This document shows, piece by piece, positions 1 to 58,043 of a stretch of DNA of 64,000 nt (positions within the stretch are counted from its first letter, which is position 1; every line of letters starts with the position of its first letter). The notes beneath the pieces were generated by a model, which ran no database searches, was not told where the DNA came from, and worked only from the letters and a program-made list of their open reading frames with translations. This DNA comes from an uncultured Verrucomicrobiales bacterium (GTDB lineage: Bacteria; Verrucomicrobiota; Verrucomicrobiia; Verrucomicrobiales; DEV007), in contig CALSSN010000006.1 of NCBI GenBank assembly GCA_943789025.1, positions 1-64,000 of the forward strand, given 5' to 3'. The position numbers and the translations under genes are program-made.

Positions 1-600
1 GTGGCGGAGCGCCTGGCAGGATGCGGGGCGGGGATCGTGCAGCTCCGCGCCAAAGGCTTCCACGAGGCGGAGGTCGAGGCGCTCGCGCTGGAGGTCCTTC
101 CTGTGTTCCGAAAGGCAGGGGTGCCGCTCGTGATTAACGATTTTCCTGAAGTCGCGGGGCGAGTAGACGCGGATGGGTTTCACCTCGGGCAGGATGACGG
201 GACGCTCGAGGAGAGTATTGCCTGCTACGCGGGTGCCCGGCACCCTACGATGCCGGAACGCATTCCGATCGTCGGTCGGTCGACGCACTCGGTGGCACAG
301 GCAGTGGCGGCCGAGGCCGAAGGTTTCGATTACATCGGGTTTGGTCCGCTCTTTGCCACCCCGACAAAGCCCGGGCGTCCTGGGATCGGAATAGAAAAAA
401 ATCGAGGCTGGTGCACCGGCTGGTTGCGCTGCCGATCTTTTGTATCGGTGGGATCAAAGCGGAAAACCTTGCCGAGGTAGTCGCTGCCGGGGCCCGGAGG
501 GTGGTGATCGTGTCCCGGCCTGCTCGAGGCAGGCGAGGAGGTCGCAGAAAAGGCGTCCGAGGTGTTGCAGGTGCTTGCGATTTCGGAAGCGGCAGAGTGA
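1..600 (+). CDS. thiE: Thiamine phosphate synthase, 5' end outside window, frameshifted
   Basis: ThiE joins the thiazole and pyrimidine phosphates to make thiamine phosphate in the cytosol. The reading opens mid-family at the segment AGIVQLRAKG, so the usual first 20-30 residues lie before base 1 and the GTG at position 1 is not the true start. Further along are the family blocks VINDFPEVA, DGFHLGQDD, FGPLFATPTK and, after a frame change, PIFCIGGIKAENL. Two indels break the frame. One lies at the A7 run near 387-393, where an eighth A restores the protein. The other is near 510-515, after which the frame reads GLLEAGEEVAEKASEVLQ to a TGA at 598-600. Both look like homopolymer errors. The next gene, gmhB, is convergent. 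The family call is secure; the coding status depends on resequencing. Confidence 0.85.
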
Positions 601-1251: not shown

Positions 1252-3069
1252 CTAGTCACCTGTCTTGAGGACTTTAATGAAGGCTTCCTGCGGGATGTTA
1301 ACCTTGCCGAACATCTTCATTTTTTTTCTTCCCCTCCTTCTGCTTTTCGAGAAGTTTTCGCTTCCTTGAAATGTCGCCGCCGTAGCATTTTGGCTAGTGA
1401 CGTTTTTCCGCATGGCTTTGATGTTTTCCCGAGCCACGATTTTTTCCCTCCCACCGCAGCCTGGATCGGAACCTGAAAGAGTTGCATGGGAATGACGTCC
1501 TTCAGCTTGGCACAGAGATTCCGGCCCGTGGTAGACGGCTTTTGTCCATATGGACGATCGAAGAGAAGGCATCGACGGGTTCTGCATTGATCAGGATGTC
1601 CATCTTGACGAGCTTGGACTGTTGGTAGTCGCTATGCTCGTAATCCATGCTGGCATACCCCTTGGAGGCGGACTTGAGGCGGTCATTGAAATCGACAAGA
1701 ATTTCGTTGAGCGGGAGGGTGCAGGTGAGCAGAATGCGTGTGGCATCGAGGGTCTCGGTATGCTCGACCTGGCCGCGTTTTTCAAGCACCAGATTCATCA
1801 TGTCTCCGATGTAATCACCCGGAGTCATCAGGAAGACACGCACGGTGGGTTCCTCGATCATGTCGATCTCTGCGGGGTCGGGTAAAAAAAGAGGGATTGT
1901 CCACTTCGACCTGCTCGCCGTTCGTTTTTGTGCACCCGATAGACCACCGACGGGTAGGTGGAGATGACGTCCATGTCGAACTCACGGCGCAAACGCTCTG
2001 GGATAATCTCCATGTGAAGGAGGCCGAGAAAGCCGCAGCGGAAGCCGAACCCAAGAGCAGCTGAGGATTCGGCCTGGAAAGAAAACGCAAGCATCATTGA
2101 TCTGAAGTTTTCCCATGGCGAGTTTGAGGGCTTCGAAGTCGTCGCTGCTGACCGGGTAGATTCCGGAGAAAACCATCGGTTGGATTTCCTTGAAGCCAGG
2201 CAGCGGATCAGTGGCTGGGTTTTCCCGTCCGGTGATGGTGTCGCCAATTTTGACCTCGGCGGCGGACTTCATGTTGGCGATCAGATATCCGACGTCACCT
2301 GAAACCAAGGTGTCTCGTTTCTCCTGTTTCGGGAGTAAAAACGCCGACCTCCTTGACTTCGTAGTTTTTCCCGGCAGCCATCGTCCTGATCGGGGAATTT
2401 CGACCCACCTCACCGGAGAAGATGCGGACGTAAGAGACGACGCCTCGGAAAGGATCGTAGAGGGAGTCGAAAACAGAGGCGCGGAGACAGCCGTCGTCTT
2501 CGACGTCGGCCGGCGGAGGAATACGGTCCACAATGGCGGTGAGGATGTCCTCAATCCCGGTGCCCATTTTGGCTGAGGCGGGGATGGCTTCTCTGGTGGG
2601 GGATGGTGAGGATGTCCTCAAGCTGCCTGTGGATGAGCGGGAGGTCGGCGGACGGTAGATCAATTTTTATTGATCACCGGGATGACGACGAGGTCTTGCT
2701 GCATGGCAAGTTGGACCGTTCGCCATGGTCTGGGCCTCGACTCCCTGGGCGGCGTCGATTAAAAGGAGTGCACCCTCGCAGGCCGCCAGCGAGCGGGAGA
2801 CTTCGTAGGAAAAGTCAACATGCCCCGGAGTATCGAGAAGGTTGAGTTTGTATTCCTTTCCATCGCTATGGTGGTAGGCCATCGTGACCGGGTGAGATTT
2901 GATGGTGATCCCGCGCTCGCGTTCGAGGTCCATGGCATCAAGGTGTTGATCCTGCTGGTCGCGCTTGGAAAACAGTCATGGTGGCCTCGAGAAGACGGTC
3001 AGAGAGGGTTGTCTTCCCATGGTCGATATGGGCGATGATAGAGAAATTCCTAGTGCGTGCGATGGACAT
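1252..3069 (-). CDS. lepA: Elongation factor 4 (LepA GTPase), multiple frameshifts
   Basis: LepA/EF4 is a translational GTPase that acts on stalled or back-tracked ribosomes. The start ATG at 3067-3069 gives [20 protein letters not shown], containing the G1 loop. It is followed by RERGITIKS, the G3 motif [11 protein letters not shown], an NKIDLP G4 motif visible only if one A is removed from the A5 run at about 2666, then [20 protein letters not shown] and the LepA C-terminal segment [16 protein letters not shown]. The tail matches the family end near [16 protein letters not shown]. The total span of 1,818 bp equals about 605 codons, the normal LepA length, so at least five small indels must cancel out. 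That pattern points to sequence error in an intact gene and not to decay. It is followed on the same strand by gmhB. Confidence 0.88.
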
Positions 3070-3630: not shown

Positions 3631-3793
3631 ATTAAAAATCACGCTTTGAGGGTGTTGTGTCAATTCAGTTCAAATGCGGCGTAATACGACGAAAGAAACC
3701 TGCTCGCTGCTTGCTGCAAATCTCGGGATTGGTGTAACATGTGAGGAGATGTCAGTTTTGTGCGTAAAAATGCTGGCAACCAGAAGGATTCGA

Positions 3794-4553
3794 ATGATGA
3801 AGATCCTGGTCGTCTCAGATATTCATTACAGCTTGAAGCAATTCGATTGGCTGGTTGCTCATCTAAAGCCGTATGACCTGGTGGTGATTGCAGGAGATAT
3901 GATGGAGCTGGGGTCTTATGTGGAATCAGATACCCAGGCAGCGGTCATGGAGCAGTATTTTCGAAAGATCTGTTCGGAGGTTCCTCTCGTTGTGTGCTCG
4001 GGAAATCATGATCTCGTGGATGACGGGGACGGCGTACGTTCGTCCGAGTGGTTGGCTGATATCGCGATTCCCGGTCTGGTGGTCGACCACGGGTGTTATG
4101 AGGATGAAAGTCTGCGTATTTTGTCATTTCCCTGGTGGGAAGAGGAAGCGGAGCGTGCTCGCGTTGATGACTGGCTTGCGAGCCAACACCGGCCGAATGA
4201 TGACAGGCCTGTCATCTGGGTCCACCACGCTCCACCGCGAGGCGCGAAGACTAGTTGGGATGGCAGGCGTGATTTGGGCGATACAACAATCCTGAAGTGG
4301 ATCGAGACGTATGGGCCGACGCTCGTGCTATCCGGTCATGTGCACAATGCGCCTTACTATCCCGAGGGGTCGTGGATCGACCGTATCGGTAAAAACAGTG
4401 GTGACCAACGGTGGGCAACAGATCGGAGATGCTCCTGCTACGATTGTTGTGGAATGGGAACACGGAGCGCTGACCTGGTGTGGGGATGGAGGGGTGCCAG
4501 GAGGATTCTCTTCGAGATTCAGTCTGAGAGAGAGCTTACGACTTTCTTTTTGA
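3794..4553 (+). CDS. Calcineurin-like metallophosphoesterase, one frameshift
   Basis: A binuclear-metal phosphoesterase of unknown substrate. The N-terminus shows the metal-binding series KILVVSDIHYS (D-x-H), VVIAGDMME (GD), VVCSGNHDL (GNHD) and later VIWVHHAPP and LVLSGHVHNAP (GH-x-H), all in the order of the family. The paired ATG at 3794/3797 follows an AGGA at 3785-3788, a good ribosome-binding site, so the longer upstream reading is rejected. Near 4390 an A5 run shifts the frame. With four A the protein continues as GKTVVTNGGQQIGDAPATIVVEW and ends at 4553. The last 35 bp overlap the convergent gene at 4519. The likely function is hydrolysis of a nucleotide or small phosphodiester, but the substrate cannot be told from the sequence. 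Confidence 0.8.
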
Positions 4554-4986
4554 GGTCGCGATGGACAATGGCGTCGAGGACACCATCAACAATTCCGATA
4601 TGATCTGAGGAGTCTTGGAGCTGCTCCTTGACGTCGACGAGATATCTGGAAGCGGCATCGAGGCGGCTGGCAAGCGTGCGTGAGACGTGGACGAGGATGC
4701 GCGGGTTGTCTCTGAGGAAGTCGAGCCCTTTGTGAGCGACTAAGAGCGTGGAGTCTTCAAGTGCCCGGACGGTAGCGGTGGTAGGAATGCCCAGGAGTAC
4801 GGAAATTTCTCCAAGAACGCTTCCTGGACTTTTGATTAGGGCGATCCGGCATCCATCGCGGACGACTTCAACTTTCCCGCATTTCAGGAAGTAGATCTTC
4901 TCTTGGCATACGCCTGCACGAATGAGCTCTTGATTCGAGGAAAAGGATTCGAGCGGGAGGTCTTTAAGCCATTCAAAGGGGAACAT
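4519..4986 (-). CDS. Stand-alone cyclic nucleotide-binding domain protein
   Basis: 155 residues that are almost entirely one Crp/Fnr-type cNMP-binding beta roll: an early FSSNQELIRAGVCQEKIYFL, then GKVEVVRDG, the phosphate-binding cassette region GSVLGEISVLLGIPTTATVRA, and a C-terminal helix with an SRTLASRLD block. No helix-turn-helix follows, so it is unlikely to bind DNA. In the cassette the usual Gly-Glu-x-(Ala/Ser) is present as GEIS, but the Arg that contacts the cyclic phosphate is not at its standard spacing (PTTATVRA does keep an Arg), so ligand binding is possible but unproven. The gene is followed by the convergent phosphoesterase. The FHA gene next upstream on the same strand may form a regulatory pair with it. 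Confidence 0.75.
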   Translation of the reverse strand: MFPFEWLKDLPLESFSSNQELIRAGVCQEKIYFLKCGKVEVVRDGCRIALIKSPGSVLGEISVLLGIPTTATVRALEDSTLLVAHKGLDFLRDNPRILVHVSRTLASRLDAASRYLVDVKEQLQDSSDHIGIVDGVLDAIVHRDLKKKVVSSLSD

Positions 4987-5126: not shown

Positions 5127-6317
5127 TTACTGGTTGGGTTTCTTCAGCTGAGGAGTGGCGGATTTCTTCTTGCTCTGGAGGACTGGAACGCCACCTTCTG
5201 TGCGGGTAAGCGGCACCGTGGGGGGAGAGCCAGCTCCCAAGCCTTGTGCTGCTGCCAGCTTTTTGGCGACTTGAGGGATTCCACCAGCTTTTCTGGCGAC
5301 CGGGACGGCTTTCTTGGCGGCAGGCGTGGCCTGGGGTGCGACCGGGACGGCTTTCTTGGCGGCAGGCGTGGCTTGGGGTACGACCGGGACAGCTTTTTTA
5401 GCAGCAGGCGTGGCCTGGGCTGCGACCGGGACGGCTTTCTTGGCGGCAGGCGTGGCTTGGGGTACGACCGGGACAGCTTTTTTAGCAGCAGGCGTGGCCT
5501 GAGCTGCGACCGGGACGGCTTTTTTAGCGCCAGGAGCAGCTTTACGTGCAGCTGGCACTGCTCTCTGCAGTCCTGGTTGAACCGGAGTGAGGGGAGCCAC
5601 AGAGGGCAAATTGGTTGCTGGGTCGAGAGTGCTGACCGCCACATCAAGGCTCTCGAGCTTCTGCTGTTGGCCTTTCACTTCGCTGGCCATGAGTTTCCAC
5701 TTGCGCGTCGTGGTGAGAAGCTCCTCTTCTAGAATGGCGACATCGGCTTCTGACGCTTTGCCTTCGGTAGCCTGACTTTTTTTTGTCTTCAGGTCTGCCT
5801 CCATCTTCTGGACCTTGGCCTCCATCATCGAGGCCTCTTTGAGGCGCTTCTGGAACTCAGCCTTCATTTGGACAATGCCGTCGGCAAGCTCTGCTTCCTG
5901 TCGCTTCATTTCCGCGATTTTGTCTCCGATGGCTGCGAACTGCGCGGCTGTCTGAAGCGATTTTGCATCGGTGTTCGCTGTCGCGCTAGCATCCGGAGGG
6001 GCCTGCCCGGCCTTTACCTGATAAAAGTAAATGGCGACTTCCTCGGAGAGCAGGATACGATCGCCGTCTTCCAGAGATACAGGATTGGATCCGATGGGTT
6101 CTCCGTTAACGCGTGTACCGTTGGTAGAACTGAGGTCGACAATCGCGTAGCTACTTGCTTTCTTCATGAGCTCGCAGTGCGATCCCGAGATGGAGTGAAA
6201 GTCGACCTGGATCTGGTTGTCGGCATCCCGTCCCATTCCGACTCTTTTGCCTTTTAACTGGAAAGGCCTCGGCTTCTTCTTGGGAATGGAAACGACGAGG
6301 TGAAACTCCTTGCTCAT
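5127..6317 (-). CDS. FHA-domain protein with coiled coil and 14-residue Ala/Pro/Lys repeats
   Basis: 396 residues. Residues ~20-100 form an FHA phosphothreonine-reading domain: GRDADNQIQV, SISGSHCEL and LSSTNGTRVNGEP carry the conserved Gly-Arg, Ser-x-x-His and Asn-Gly positions. Residues ~130-220 are a charged coiled coil rich in Gln/Lys/Glu. The C-terminal ~170 residues are low-complexity Ala/Pro/Lys/Val with five tandem 14-residue units (ATPAAKKAVPV core) and end in a basic tail. There is no signal peptide and no membrane segment. Basic Ala-Lys-Pro tails of this kind resemble histone-H1-like nucleoid binders, so a DNA- or polyanion-binding tail is a reasonable inference. A second FHA protein with an acidic-basic tract lies at 56948-58043. 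Confidence 0.8.
   Translation of the reverse strand: MSKEFHLVVSIPKKKPRPFQLKGKRVGMGRDADNQIQVDFHSISGSHCELMKKASSYAIVDLSSTNGTRVNGEPIGSNPVSLEDGDRILLSEEVAIYFYQVKAGQAPPDASATANTDAKSLQTAAQFAAIGDKIAEMKRQEAELADGIVQMKAEFQKRLKEASMMEAKVQKMEADLKTKKSQATEGKASEADVAILEEELLTTTRKWKLMASEVKGQQQKLESLDVAVSTLDPATNLPSVAPLTPVQPGLQRAVPAARKAAPGAKKAVPVAAQATPAAKKAVPVVPQATPAAKKAVPVAAQATPAAKKAVPVVPQATPAAKKAVPVAPQATPAAKKAVPVARKAGGIPQVAKKLAAAQGLGAGSPPTVPLTRTEGGVPVLQSKKKSATPQLKKPNQ
5299..5508 (-). repeat. Tandem 42-bp coding repeat, five units
   Basis: Five head-to-tail 42-bp units (5299, 5341, 5383, 5425 and 5467) plus a partial unit to about 5530 encode the 14-residue repeat of the FHA protein. Units 2 and 4 are nearly identical to each other, as are 3 and 5, so the array probably grew by duplicating an 84-bp dimer. 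Confidence 0.9.
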
Positions 6318-20164: not shown

Positions 20165-22642
20165 ATGGGAGCGATTCAATGCAACAAGTGCGGTATGGAA
20201 CTGCCCGAGGTGGTAGTCGGTCGTGCGCAGGAGGCAAAGACGAGGGAGGAGACGGGTGGTGAGCATGTCTGTCCGCTCTGCGCTCCACCGGCGGGAGTTA
20301 AAGGGCGCCAGAGTATCTGGATAATACTACTCAAGCTTTTTCTTATCGTGGCTTTTGTCCTGCCGGGGTTTTTCCTTCAGAGGTGCAGTTATACCCGCAT
20401 TTCCGAACTTAGGCAGATCGCTCGGGTGCCTCGGACCAAGGTGATGGCTGCGGTAGCTGGCGAGGTGAATCTTTCAGGGAAAGCGCTGCAGAGCGCAGCG
20501 GGCGGGACTCTGCTCAAGGCGACCGACACCCAGACCTCCTGCCTCTATTTCCGTTATACGAAAGAGCGCGAAGAGCGGAACTCCGATGGCAAAACCAAGT
20601 GGGTTGTCATCGATCGTGACGAGCGTTACGTTTCCTTTGACCTCGCAGATGGCAGTGGGCGGGCGCGGATCGAGCCGTGTTCCAGAGTGAAGTTTCACGT
20701 CCCGCGGTCCCACCGGCGCCAGAGCGGAAATTATCGGTTTACCGAGTATCGGATCGATCCCGGCGAGCGGGTCTTTGTCTTCGGGTTTCTGGAAGAAACC
20801 GATAACAGCGGTGGTTTACCGGTGGTCTCCTTTCTCAGGGGTGGGGATTACCAACCTATCATTTCCAAGCGCTCGGAATTGGAAGAACGCCAAAATCGAG
20901 GGCTTGGTTCGATCTGGCTCTGTTGGGTGGCCTGTGCTTTGTCGGCCTGGCTACGGCAATTCTTTTTTCGTTGCTTGGCCTCCACAGAATGCTGGTGTTT
21001 TTCGGCCTGCTCAGTACGGTGGTCAGCGGACTACTCGTCTACCTTGGGACTCGCATGATGGTCGAGGACTTGACCACCTCGCAGCGGCGGGCAGTCCGGC
21101 AGGAGGAAGTGGTCAGAGAATTGATTCAGAAGGAACTGAAAAATCACGGTGAAAGGTGGTCGGGAACATGGGAGATACTTGGGGATTTCTCGAACTACGC
21201 GAAAATTCCAGCGCCCGCACGGACCCGCCTCAGGAGAATCAGGATCGATCAGGCATCCACCGCACGGCGCGTCCGCCGTCAGGCTACGAGTTTTCCATAC
21301 AGTTTCATTCGACCGTGGGTGAATGGTGCGCTGCCTTCGGAAATTCCTCTGACTGAGAGAGATGAAAAATTTCTTGAGAAAATAGACGCGCAGTTTGTGG
21401 AGGCCTCGGTTTCCGGATTCGGAGGAATGCTCGGAAGCGTGCTCGGCCTCGGAGTGGGCCTGGGAGCACTCCTGCTTGGTTTCCGCTCGGTGGCACAAAA
21501 ACGTCTGGCAGAAAATCTCCCTACCACTCCGACCTCAGGCGTCACCTACGGTCTGACCGAGGTCATGGGTCTGGTAGTTGCCTCTGAAGATGACGCTGAC
21601 GAGGAAGGCGACGAGGCTTTCCTGCGTGCGCCCTTAAGTGGTAAACCCTGCGTCGCTTACGAATACCAGATCAAAGAAAAACGGAGAAGCGGGAAGCGGA
21701 CGAGGTGGGTGACCATACATTCTGATTCGAAGCGCAGAAGATTTCAGTGTGTCGACCGGGAAGGCGCTCTCTTCGTTGACCCGGAGGGAGCGGAAATTGA
21801 CCCATGGCGGAAAGACTCCCGTCGCGAGGGGAAGCTGAAGCACGAGGAGACACGAATCGAGATCGGTGACCCGGTTTACATTCTCGCCCAGGCGCAAGTC
21901 GACCCAGAGCAGGTCGACACTCTTTATCTGGCCAAGCCAGTCGACTACGAGGAAAAAATCCCTTTTTTGATCTCAGGATTCCGGGAGTCGCATGTTCTCT
22001 GGAAAAAAGGCAGGCAGGCAGCATTGGTTCTGACCGCTGCCTTCGGGGGCTTTCTTTTTTCCGGTCTCATGCTGTTTGGAACACTGGGCTCGTTTAACCC
22101 GGCAAGTTATCTTCTGGCATCGCTGGTCGGCCCAGCTCTGATGTTGCTCATCGCCGTCGTTTTGCATTTTAATGACCTGATATTTCTTCGTGATCGCTGT
22201 CTGAGGAATCGCTCGAACATCGACGTAGCCCTTAAAAAAAGACACGACCTGATCCCCCGGATGGAAGAAGTGGCCAAGGGCATGATGGCTCACGAAAGCG
22301 GCCTTCAAGAACGGTTGGCTGCCCTTCGGTCAGCGGATGACGAGCAGGATATCGCCCGAAGAGTGACTGGAGGACATCAGGCAGTCAACCAGCTCTGGGC
22401 CCTCGGTGAGGCGTATCCCGAAATCCGATCCGGGGGTCTGATGGCGGCCCTCACGCAGCAACTCGTCGTGTGCGAGAATGAGATTGCCTTCATTTCTCAA
22501 AGTCTCAATGACGCCGTGGAGGTCTACAATGCGCGGATCGCCTGTTTCTCCCGACATCCTGCTTGCCCGCCTCTGCAGCTTTCGCCCGGCAGAATTTCTC
22601 ACCTGGGATGGTGACCGGATAAAGACGATTTCACTTCGATGA
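20165..22642 (+). CDS. Zinc ribbon - GIDE - GIDE - LemA membrane fusion protein, two frameshifts
   Basis: About 825 residues if two indels (near 20905 and 22545) are sequence errors. Order: a two-pair zinc ribbon (CNKCG ... CPLC); a transmembrane helix (IWIILLKLFLIVAFVLPGF); a first GIDE/MULAN-type domain (VAGEVNLSG ... TSCLYFRYTKEREER); two more helices (GLATAILFSLLGLHRMLVFF); a Gly-rich hydrophobic hairpin (GMLGSVLGLGVGLGALLLGF); a second GIDE domain (LSGKPCVAYEYQIKEKR); two helices; and a LemA domain (CLRNRSNIDVALKKRHDLIP, then a frame change, then FRPAEFLTWDGDRIKTISLR, the normal LemA end). GIDE domains occur in mitochondrial MULAN and in bacterial membrane proteins often encoded beside lemA; here all are in one chain. 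ATG 20165 starts at the zinc ribbon. If the first frameshift is real there would be two proteins, the second from TTG 20923. Confidence 0.72.
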
Positions 22643-22721
22643 AGTGCTGGTTTGGTTTCCGGCAGTAGATGCCTGCATCCCAGATCTTTGATTTTTTACC
22701 GCTCGCGGAGGTTCTAATGTT

Positions 22722-23828
22722 CTATCGCTTCCAGAACGGCTTCTTATTTGCCTTCACATGCTCGCGATAGCTTTCGGTAACGAAGTTCTTGTCCCGACAG
22801 TAATCGAGCGCAGTGGCGAGGGTAATTTTCTCCCCTGCTGCGAGTTCGACAAGGCAGTGATCACGTGTGTGCATGCCCTCATTGCGACCGATTTCAATGA
22901 GACCGAGCACCTGCTCGAGTTTTCGTTCCCTGATGCAGGTGCCGATGGAGTTGGTAACTCGCATGACTTCACTGAGAAGAACACGTCCGCCGCCTTCCTC
23001 AGTGGAGGGAAGCAGGTGCTGGGAGACGACTCCTTCAAGGGTGGTGGAGAGCTGTGAGGCGATTTGCTGTTGCTGTTCTCTCGGGAAGGTGTCGATGAGG
23101 CGGTCGACACTCTTAGGGGCGTCGACGGTGTGAAGGGTCGAAAGCACGAGGTGGCCGGTCTCGGCAGCAGTGAGCGCAACGCGAATCGTTTCAGGGTCGC
23201 GCATCTCACTGACGATAATGACGTCAGGATCCTGGCGCATAGCACTGCGCAGGGCCCCAGCAAAACTGTGGGTGTCAGTGCCGATCTGACGTTGCTTGAT
23301 GATCGATGTCGGGGTGTGCGGGAAGACGAACTCAATCGGGTCTTCGATAGTGACGACCACGGCGGAGCGTTCCTCGGTAATCCGCCTCGTCATGGCGGCA
23401 AGCGTCGTGCTCTTTCCTGATCCTGTGATTCCTGTAACCAGCACAAGCCCTTCATGAACATTGCAGAAAGCATCGACGACCGGGTAGTGCCCGAGGGACC
23501 CGAGTTCCGGAATCTCGTCGGGAATGAAGCGGAATGCCGCTTCAAGATTGCCTTGCGCGAAGTGGGCATTGCCGCGAAAACGCCCGAGATTCTCTACCTG
23601 TAGGGCGAAGTCCAGTTCGAGGTTCTTTTCAAGCTCGGCTCGTTGGGTGTCCTTGAGAGTCGCCATAATCAACTCTTTGGCCAAGGGGCCATCGAGCGAT
23701 TCCTCTCCCATTGAGTGCAGAACGCCGTGAATACGAATCTGCGGGGGAGCGCCGACAGTGATATGAAGGTCTGATCCGTCGTTTTCAAGAACCAGTTGAA
23801 GATAGTCAACGAGATCATAATCGATCAT
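22722..23828 (-). CDS. pilT: Type IV pilus retraction ATPase PilT
   Basis: 368 residues, full length. Hexameric secretion ATPase that depolymerises type IV pili for twitching motility. Walker A is GITGSGKST (residues ~133-141). The Asp box is VVTIEDPIEFV, Walker B is DPDVIIVSEMRDPET, and the His box is TGHLVLSTLHTVDA. The PilT-specific AIRNLIRE helix is not conserved exactly (a degenerate C-terminal region is seen), so a PilU-like paralogue is possible. No other pilus genes are in the window. It is divergent from the DUF58 gene at 23939. Confidence 0.93.
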   Translation of the reverse strand: MIDYDLVDYLQLVLENDGSDLHITVGAPPQIRIHGVLHSMGEESLDGPLAKELIMATLKDTQRAELEKNLELDFALQVENLGRFRGNAHFAQGNLEAAFRFIPDEIPELGSLGHYPVVDAFCNVHEGLVLVTGITGSGKSTTLAAMTRRITEERSAVVVTIEDPIEFVFPHTPTSIIKQRQIGTDTHSFAGALRSAMRQDPDVIIVSEMRDPETIRVALTAAETGHLVLSTLHTVDAPKSVDRLIDTFPREQQQQIASQLSTTLEGVVSQHLLPSTEEGGGRVLLSEVMRVTNSIGTCIRERKLEQVLGLIEIGRNEGMHTRDHCLVELAAGEKITLATALDYCRDKNFVTESYREHVKANKKPFWKR

Positions 23829-23938
23829 GAAAGAGTTTAAGGGAATTTTTCCGATCTGGCTAAGAAAATCCTTAGGAACCTGTGGCGCTAGGGTTTCTTT
23901 TTGCCAAGTGACGGAGCGGGGCGCATGGTCTGAGAGCT

Positions 23939-24826
23939 ATGGAAGAAATCTCGGAGATTCTGAAGCGTGTGCGGCGGATTGAACTGCTGACGCGCGGTCT
24001 TGTCCGCGAGAGCCTCGGTGGTGAATACCACAGCTCGTTTAAAGGGCAGGGGATGGACTTCCATGACCTTCGGGAATACCAGGCTGGAGACGAAGTACGC
24101 GTGATCGATTGGAACGTCACGGCCCGGATGAGTGCCCCTTTCGTGAAAACTTTTCGGGAAGAGCGCCAGCTGACGGTCTTTCTGCTCGTCGATGTGAGTG
24201 CCTCAGGCAACTACGGTGGGAGTAGTCAGAGTAAGAGAGAACTGGCGGCTGAGGTGGCAGCCTGCTTCGCGTTCAGTGCCATCCACAACCAGGATCAGGT
24301 CGGGCTGATTCTTTTCAGCGATCATGTGGAACTCTTTCTCCCTCCTCGCAAGGGAGCGGGGAATACACTCCGGCTGATCCGTGAGATTCTGGCCTGGGAG
24401 CCGCGGGGCCGGACGACAGCATTGAATGCCGCGACGGACAGGCTGGTTGCTTCGGTAGCTCGCCGGGCGCTTTGTTTTATGGTTTCAGATTTTCAGATGC
24501 CGATGGAGGAGATGGACGAGGCGGTTCGGGTGGCCGGCGTGAAACACGATCTTGTCGCTGTGCAGATCAGCGATCCGAATGAAGAGGAACTCCCCCGTAG
24601 TGGGTGGATCAGTCTCGAGGATCCGGAAACTGGCGAGCAGGTAACGATCAATCCATCCCGACCAGGATTGCGCGAAAGCTATCAAAGCCTGAGGAACGCG
24701 TGGCAAGGCGAACTCAAAACAGTGCTGCGCCGGCGATCCATCGACCATCTTCACCTGCGCACAGGCAGTGATTATCTCCCGGCGATGCATACATTCTTCC
24801 AAAGGAGGGCCCAAAGGCATGCCTAA
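23939..24826 (+). CDS. DUF58 / VWA-like protein
   Basis: 295 residues. The N-terminal DUF58 region has FHDLREYQAGDEVRVIDWNV, the family core (R-x-Y-x-x-G-D-x-x-R-x-I-D-W). It is followed by a von Willebrand-like fold with a MIDAS metal site (LLVDVSASG, D-x-S-x-S) and VSDFQM. DUF58 proteins normally work with MoxR AAA ATPases as adaptor or maturation factors. The only MoxR gene in the window is 19 kb away, in a second cluster that has its own DUF58 member (42175-43101), so this is a stand-alone paralogue. The downstream neighbour is the YkgJ-like gene, 56 bp away. Confidence 0.88.
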   Translation: MEEISEILKRVRRIELLTRGLVRESLGGEYHSSFKGQGMDFHDLREYQAGDEVRVIDWNVTARMSAPFVKTFREERQLTVFLLVDVSASGNYGGSSQSKRELAAEVAACFAFSAIHNQDQVGLILFSDHVELFLPPRKGAGNTLRLIREILAWEPRGRTTALNAATDRLVASVARRALCFMVSDFQMPMEEMDEAVRVAGVKHDLVAVQISDPNEEELPRSGWISLEDPETGEQVTINPSRPGLRESYQSLRNAWQGELKTVLRRRSIDHLHLRTGSDYLPAMHTFFQRRAQRHA

Positions 24827-56947: not shown

Positions 56948-58043
56948 TCAGTCCGAGGGGTCTTTTACTAGGTTGCCCTCTGAATCATGGATGGGACCCT
57001 GCACTTCGATATACCGGCCTTTCTCGAAGGCATCGAGGAGGAAGAAGCCCCCCGTCTCAATACTGTGCCGCACAGATAAGCCGAGAAGAGCAACGGCGAT
57101 GGTAAGGCACAGCATCAGGAAAAGATAGAATCCGGTGTCTCCCTGCGTGTCGTAGGGGCTGCCGTTTGCATTTTTTCCGAATACCTGAGCACTGCGGGAT
57201 CCGCCTCCTGGCGGTTGGAAATGCGGGCTGGGTGTCGCTGGGAGGCGTGGGTTCCTTAATACGGGCGCGGAGGCTCTTTTGATGGCTGGGCTGGGTGCCG
57301 GAGCGGATGCCACCTGGATGTTGGCTGGAGTGGGTCCGTCCGTGGCGGGTGCTGGGGCAGGGGTAGGAAAGTTCTTTTCTAACGTAGCATCCGCTAATGT
57401 CTCCTGCGAAATCGAGGAAGGGTCTTGTTTTGGTGAGCTGGAGTCCTTCGCTTTATCAGTGTCCTTGTCCTTAGTGTCCTCCTTGCCCTTGGTGTCCTTG
57501 GTGTCCTTGGTCCTCCTTGTCCTCCTTGTCCTCCTTGTCCTCCTTGTCCTCCTTGTCCTCCTTGTCCTCCTTGTCCTCCTTGTCCTCCTTGTCCTCCTTG
57601 TCCTCCTTGTCCTCCTTGTCCTCCTTGTCCTCCTTGTCCTCCTTGTCCTCCTTGTCCTCCTTGTCCTCCTTGTCCTCCTTGTCCTCCTTGTCCTCCTTGT
57701 CCTCCTTGTCCTCGCTGTCCTCGCTGTCCTTGGTGTCCCTAGTTTCGGGTTCGTCTCCAGAGGCGTAAAATTTTCCTTTGATGGTGCCTATCTCGATACG
57801 ATCTCCCGAGGCAAATTGGTGTTTCGAGATGGTTTGGCCATTGATTTCAATTCCATTGGTAGAGCCAAGATCCACAATCGAGAAGAACCCGTTGTCGAAA
57901 GAAATTTTCCCGTGGTGTCCCGAGATGGTGCCGTCCTCAAAGACGATGTCATTGTCGTTGGCTTTGCCGAAAGAGATGGTTGCTGCGACAAGTTCGATGC
58001 GAACTTCAGAGTTGTCTCCTTGTTGGAAAATAATGCAGGGCAT
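56948..58043 (-). CDS. FHA-domain protein with (Lys-Glu-Asp)22 tract and membrane anchor, frameshifted
   Basis: About 365 residues. The N-terminal FHA domain has ATISFGKANDNDIVFEDGTI, SGHHGKI and LGSTNGIEINGQ (Ser-Gly-His, Asn-Gly conserved; the usual first Arg is Lys). From residue ~106 a 22-fold Lys-Glu-Asp repeat forms an alternating-charge, probably single-helix rod. The frame changes at the end of the tract, near 57480-57510. The coherent continuation is a Pro/Ala-rich linker (KNFPTPAPAPATDGPTPANI), a basic segment, a transmembrane helix (FYLFLMLCLTIAVALLGLSV) and a short C-terminal part ending at 56948. The FHA end is therefore held at the membrane by an extended stalk. An Arg-to-Lys change may lower phosphopeptide affinity. 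Confidence 0.75.
57510..57707. repeat. 9-bp tandem repeat, 22 units, coding Lys-Glu-Asp
   Basis: Twenty-two units of GTCCTCCTT (plus strand). On the minus strand each reads Lys-Glu-Asp. The first two units after it in the sequence (57708-57725) are variant GTCCTCGCT (Ser-Glu-Asp). Perfect identity between units points to recent slippage. On the plus strand the same DNA reads Leu-Val-Leu, a false frame. Confidence 0.95.

Follow-up and report, generated by a model that had tools for sequence, protein, structure and literature searches.

Duplicated GIDE modules and a LemA domain in one predicted inner-membrane protein of Verrucomicrobiota

The GIDE and LemA domains are each already known. In eukaryotes, a GIDE (BAM) domain is combined with a RING finger in MAPL/MULAN/MUL1 of the mitochondrial outer membrane, and Wideman and Moore (2015) did not find a RING in any prokaryotic BAM protein (PMC4457424). 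The LemA family includes MamQ and T. maritima TM0961 (2ETD), and the published model for MamQ is one of membrane organisation, not of control of proteolysis (PMC4902198). Single-GIDE–LemA fusions may be present as an architecture in domain databases. Our literature search found no paper describing a GIDE–LemA fusion, an inverted tandem module or a shared M48 tail, and co-mentions of LemA and HtpX were uninformative at the level of titles and abstracts.

Here, we describe a gene from the first 64,000 nucleotides of contig CALSSN010000006.1 of an uncultured Verrucomicrobiales bacterium (the window). A first-pass annotation of this DNA had claimed zinc-ribbon cysteines, GIDE-like modules, hydrophobic hairpins and a LemA tail, all of which are present in the sequence (Table 1). 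Judged from sequence comparison, the gene almost certainly encodes a single inner-membrane protein that unites a zinc ribbon, duplicated TM-GIDE-TM-TM modules and LemA, with the parts in the order zinc ribbon–TM–GIDE–TM–TM–TM–GIDE–TM–TM–LemA and a helical linker between the TM2-TM3 hairpin and TM4. The internal duplication with inverted topology, the PDZ inserts and the M48-peptidase tail in relatives go beyond that annotation. As assembled, the gene is read as three stretches in two frames between 20165 and 22642 (+). The ATG at 20165 agrees with the starts in relatives (MNTLLCEKCG/MGAIQCNKCG) and the stop codon lies at 22640-22642; no promoter-like site was found for the gene, nor does a clear ribosome-binding site stand out 5' of it. 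By eye, from the translations, the 5' neighbour is fluoride-channel-like and the 3' neighbour PilT-like, both on the opposite strand. These flanking genes look unrelated to the tandem gene, which in the loci checked has no conserved neighbours beyond close relatives. Elsewhere in the window, a forkhead-associated-like protein (57471-58043 (-)) has a long (K-E-D)n tail that reads as Leu/Val repeats on the other strand, and the C-terminal part of another (5127-6317 (-)) contains recurring units of the AAKKAVPV..QATP type.

Table 1. Coordinates of the tandem GIDE–LemA gene and its parts in the window
Feature	Position	Strand	Basis or remark
Tandem GIDE–LemA gene	20165..22642	+	two frame breaks, ~826 codons in all
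Zinc ribbon CNKC ... CPLC, N-terminal	20180..20281	+	four Cys kept in L036, L037, L046, L047, L048
TM1	20321..20377	+	hydropathy 2.73; helix 45-78 in AF2 model of relative L047
GIDE module 1, predicted periplasmic	20387..20908	+	profile E=4e-67; homologous to GIDE2
Frame break 1, private to source assembly	20918..20932	+	comparison with uninterrupted L003/L047
TM2-TM3 hairpin	20929..21045	+	hydropathy; helices 224-257, 262-313 in L047 model
Helical linker between modules, predicted periplasmic	21046..21420	+	alignment; helices in L047 model
TM4	21427..21483	+	hydropathy; K/R 0 before, 3 after
GIDE module 2, predicted cytosolic	21484..22020	+	Pfam PF12483 24.5 bits; profile E=4e-69
TM5-TM6 hairpin	22021..22164	+	hydropathy, K/R pattern
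LemA domain, predicted cytosolic helical bundle	22168..22600	+	Pfam PF04011 5e-22
Frame break 2, private to source assembly	22540..22555	+	frame change in conserved segment at LemA end

The same architecture was sought in 96 genomes of relatives, then in 387 of the order and 388 of the phylum. Complete one-frame matches were found in 21 genomes, of which 16 belong to the order and 5 lie beyond it, spread over three additional groups of family rank (f22, f32 and f63), and the single frames of the intact homologues span 753–1129 aa. Those relatives that carry a name are MAGs assigned to Verrucomicrobiales, Roseibacillus and Akkermansiaceae, apart from one Deltaproteobacteria record that is probably a misnamed bin. 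The plasmid matches listed span the LemA part only, and none of the records reaches 80% coverage of the query. One group of the family carries the zinc ribbon (the window protein, L046-L048, and L036/L037 with an added C-terminal domain), a second, from other classes, has a C2HC-like finger together with the C-terminal domain (L060-L063), and a third has no finger, with or without a PDZ domain (L031-L035, L039-L044 and the divergent L064). In the tree, the window protein groups with L046-L048 in a clade of four rows (support 100/99), which is nested in the finger group. The Pfam GIDE model scored over its cut-off in 18 genomes of the 388-genome phylum sample, and LemA was also present in all GIDE frames whose context was inspected, 10 of them single-GIDE and 9 tandem. 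The first-pass annotation had treated GIDE and LemA as known neighbours. Their physical partnership is upheld by the presence of LemA in all GIDE-carrying long frames checked, but it was understated, as the two are fused in Verrucomicrobiota.

Alignment to these relatives places break 1 near 20925, inside TM2, and break 2 near 22545, inside LemA. The first break had thus been correctly recognized but was put at ~20905; the window's first frame still matches relatives as far as about GSIWLCWV. The core GIDE1-TM-GIDE2-TM lies in one stop-free frame in at least 21 other Verrucomicrobiota genomes, and therefore the breaks in the window are not gene boundaries. All 21 complete homologues are uninterrupted across the break-1 site and, where they extend that far, across the break-2 site, which bears out the single continuous polypeptide proposed across the two indels; relatives split into two proteins, which would have spoken against it, were not encountered. 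A literal reading of the frames as two or three separate proteins follows the assembly sequence as it stands, but these continuous homologues, and the position of the breaks, one within a TM helix and the other within LemA, make it extremely unlikely, and for the family it was rejected. The two indels are likely sequencing errors. We consider it quite unlikely that both are real and that the window copy is a decaying, inactive pseudogene. Two frame breaks in a single gene might point that way, as might the share of sites conserved in other members that the window protein keeps (100/109, or 0.917), which is slightly under that of most relatives (87-100%, mostly 0.93-1.0). However, apart from the two breaks there is no other stop in the gene, and its codon-position GC is gene-like, similar to that of gyrA, in all three segments. 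Moreover, lepA, a highly conserved gene, is spread over four frames in the same window, which points to assembly errors; this split, together with the conserved residues kept, makes sequencing indels likelier than decay. Along with lepA, a thiE-like gene and a metallophosphoesterase gene are frame-broken in the window (1500-2663 (-), 1-480 (+) and 3674-4603 (+)). Given so indel-rich an assembly, split genes in the window call for caution.

Both GIDE-like modules withstood closer comparison. GIDE2, in the second frame of the window, exceeds the Pfam PF12483 cut-off of 23.6 bits, whereas GIDE1 reaches 12.2 bits in the window and stays under it. With profiles built from the relatives plus the window itself, the first frame scores E=4e-67 against GIDE1 and 1e-16 against GIDE2, and the two profiles match each other with an HMM–HMM probability of 99.6% over 157 columns, compared with ≤0.5% for the controls (LemA, the linker, ten column-shuffled profiles and one reversed profile). 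In relatives G400 and G527, both modules score over the Pfam cut-off within one ORF, and PF12483 was detected at E≤0.001 in 19/20 family rows. The Pfam GIDE search of the window's own genome gave no match at E≤0.001, since the window's modules are divergent. On this sequence evidence GIDE1 is a true GIDE domain, and the matches to GIDE are significant. As modules 1 and 2 align over 243 columns, TM segments included, the alignment further shows that the whole TM–GIDE–TM–TM module is duplicated. Eight columns (G22, G28, F93, D97, G100, P106, E148 and E190 of alignment A4) are invariant among GIDE1, GIDE2 and single-GIDE proteins. For relative L047 (810 aa), AF2 gave a model (pLDDT, 85.7; pTM, 0.75) with two beta-domains of identical strand order, and the placement of GIDE/BAM between TM helices is evident from hydropathy and from this model. 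The isolated GIDE domain of the single-GIDE relative L131 was modelled at pLDDT 90.5. Sequence and fold searches of the PDB with the GIDE domain gave no significant match, the best fold matches including OB-fold SSBs at E=0.02. The fold of the L131 model also recurs in giant-virus proteins (Tupanvirus, Klosneuvirus, Satyrvirus and Hyperionvirus; Foldseek E 1e-4 to 7e-9, TM up to 0.63) that are uncharacterised, so that a GIDE domain in giant viruses is possible on the basis of modelling.

Six hydrophobic segments, three per module, are found in the window protein and in nearly all full-length members, with TM1 or TM4 under the hydropathy cut-off in a few. Typical K/R counts are 1-3 before and 4-5 after TM4, 2-3 before and 0 after TM5, and 0 before and 4 after TM6, a bias from which GIDE2 and LemA are predicted to be cytosolic. 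Six TM segments combined with this K/R placement would then leave the N terminus in the cytosol and GIDE1 in the periplasm, and the odd number of TM segments per repeat (three) implies that the second copy is inverted. We therefore regard a topology with six TM segments, a periplasmic GIDE1 and a cytosolic GIDE2, LemA and zinc finger as probable. TM1 is its weakest part: the N side of this segment is usually the more positive one, but several members show a weak charge bias there. In L005 and L006, a PDZ domain is inserted after GIDE1, a position that fits a periplasmic GIDE1, since the periplasm is where many bacterial PDZ proteins act. Opposite to the cytosolic placement given here, the soluble domains of LemA proteins are predicted to be extracytoplasmic in one review (PMC3905215).

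The LemA part has the features of its family (PF04011), namely the profile match and a helical bundle after a TM segment, which in the L047 model matches LemA 2etd (Foldseek E=6.6e-4). A score of 42.5 bits against the MamQ model NF040966, well under its equivalog cut-off of 250, is general LemA similarity only. Six relatives (L036, L037 and L060-L063) continue beyond LemA in a C-terminal extension of ~230 aa. The extension matched no family in Pfam but does match the C-terminal domain of LemA-adjacent M48 (HtpX-like) peptidases (E=2e-27 to 2e-40), and in the reverse direction the peptidase-tail profile picks up the extension of the tandem proteins (6e-40 to 2e-9); Pfam gives a weak TerB match in the tail of the M48 peptidase. 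When eight plain LemA loci were extended, each had an M48-plus-tail gene after LemA on the same strand; one of these loci is in the window's own genome, where this canonical LemA-M48 (HtpX-like) pair lies at G000:C19, about 22100-24730 (L104, L149). It follows from the shared tail and this pairing that LemA in some members is covalently followed by a domain otherwise found in its partner peptidase. The tandem proteins contain no M48 domain (HExxH), only the tail being common to both, and this in relatives; the tail is absent from the window protein and from L046 and L047, its closest relatives, L048 having been left out of tail scoring as it reaches a contig end. Because tail-bearing clades lie around the window's clade in the tree, the M48-type tail was probably lost in that subclade.

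From these observations we infer, tentatively, that the tandem protein may well be a protease-free scaffold or sensor of the envelope within the LemA–M48 (HtpX-like) membrane quality-control system. Conceivably, GIDE1, in some members aided by a PDZ domain, would monitor the envelope from the periplasmic side, and the paired hairpins would relay the signal to GIDE2 and the LemA bundle. The bundle might then organise or regulate the M48 peptidase or compete for its LemA partner, and LemA, with the tail in some members, would engage or regulate the LemA–M48 machinery. We count in favour of this proposal the open frames in 21 genomes, the 243-column module alignment, the K/R bias, the L047 model, the M48 tail, the LemA-M48 pairs and the PDZ insert. 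Against it, none of the loci checked has an M48 gene beside the tandem gene, whose neighbours are not conserved, and the window protein has no M48 tail; the MamQ model, the extracytoplasmic prediction for LemA and the weak TM1 bias also count against it. The link between the tandem protein and an M48 protease in particular is held with somewhat more reserve, as a homologous tail is no proof of contact between the two. It seems unlikely, at this stage, that the protein is an inverted-repeat membrane-spanning sensor that controls membrane proteolysis by M48 through the coupling of a periplasmic GIDE to a cytosolic GIDE-LemA. If it were, bacterial GIDE, LemA, PDZ and M48 would constitute one envelope stress module, with a functional parallel in the mitochondrial set of MAPL, the M48 protease OMA1 and HtrA2/Omi.

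A scaffold that organises the membrane with no tie to proteolysis is possible, if rather doubtful, by analogy with MamQ, which is needed for normal magnetosome membranes and has been proposed to act as a hub at the cytoplasmic membrane (PMC4902198). Here, a LemA hub would gather membrane proteins or shape the membrane, with the GIDE domains as extra binding barrels on either side. The lack of a conserved adjoining enzyme gene and of an enzyme domain within the protein (Pfam) would suit such a role, but the M48-peptidase tail fused in six members and the LemA-M48 pairing in all eight loci examined would not. The patchy distribution of the family might suggest a component of anti-phage defence; this is very unlikely, as no PADLOC family matched at E of 0.01 or better (0 families) and the neighbours are not conserved. 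Finally, the first-pass annotation had likened the zinc ribbon to the RING of MULAN, a comparison that we do not follow: the window's finger is a plain CxxC...CxxC ribbon, and since the finger is C2HC-like in another subclade and roughly half of the family does without one, it is accessory. In one member (alignment A3, N terminus, probably one of L060-L063) the finger weakly matches zf_UBZ, a ubiquitin-binding zinc finger of eukaryotes (E=9e-4), a likeness that is probably convergent. An E3-ligase-like activity of the kind seen in eukaryotic MULAN/MAPL, in which the ribbon would stand in for the RING, could appeal to this match, to GIDE/BAM homology and to the zinc finger in part of the family. 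It is nevertheless hardly credible, given that the finger is so often absent, that Pfam detects no RING in any family row, the C terminus being LemA with or without the M48 tail, and that a RING was likewise not found in prokaryotic BAM proteins by Wideman and Moore (PMC4457424).

Among known systems, plain LemA proteins such as MamQ and TM0961 share with the tandem protein a helical bundle that follows a TM helix, but they have one TM segment and no GIDE. Single-GIDE–LemA proteins (frames of ~420-577 aa; L131-L139 and L150) correspond, as TM-GIDE-TM-TM-LemA, to its C-terminal half over 374 aligned columns, whereas they have one module, no inverted first module, no M48 tail and, among those inspected, no zinc finger. 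In G120, a plain LemA gene directly adjoins a single-GIDE–LemA gene on the same strand (L134, 6328-8320 (-)). The LemA-linked M48 (HtpX-like) peptidase has its weakly TerB-like tail domain in common with six tandem GIDE–LemA proteins, which in contrast lack the peptidase domain; the tail is absent from the window's subclade. Together, the consistent fusion of GIDE with LemA within one phylum and an M48 tail on some copies provide a concrete, testable partner set for two orphan domains. In MAPL/MULAN/MUL1, as in the tandem protein, TM helices flank GIDE/BAM, one GIDE is predicted on the outer side (intermembrane-space-like) and the zinc-binding domain is cytosolic. Unlike MAPL, the tandem protein is bacterial, has no RING, contains two GIDE copies and ends in LemA, and its family is a candidate for the ancestral context of the domain of human MAPL/MUL1.
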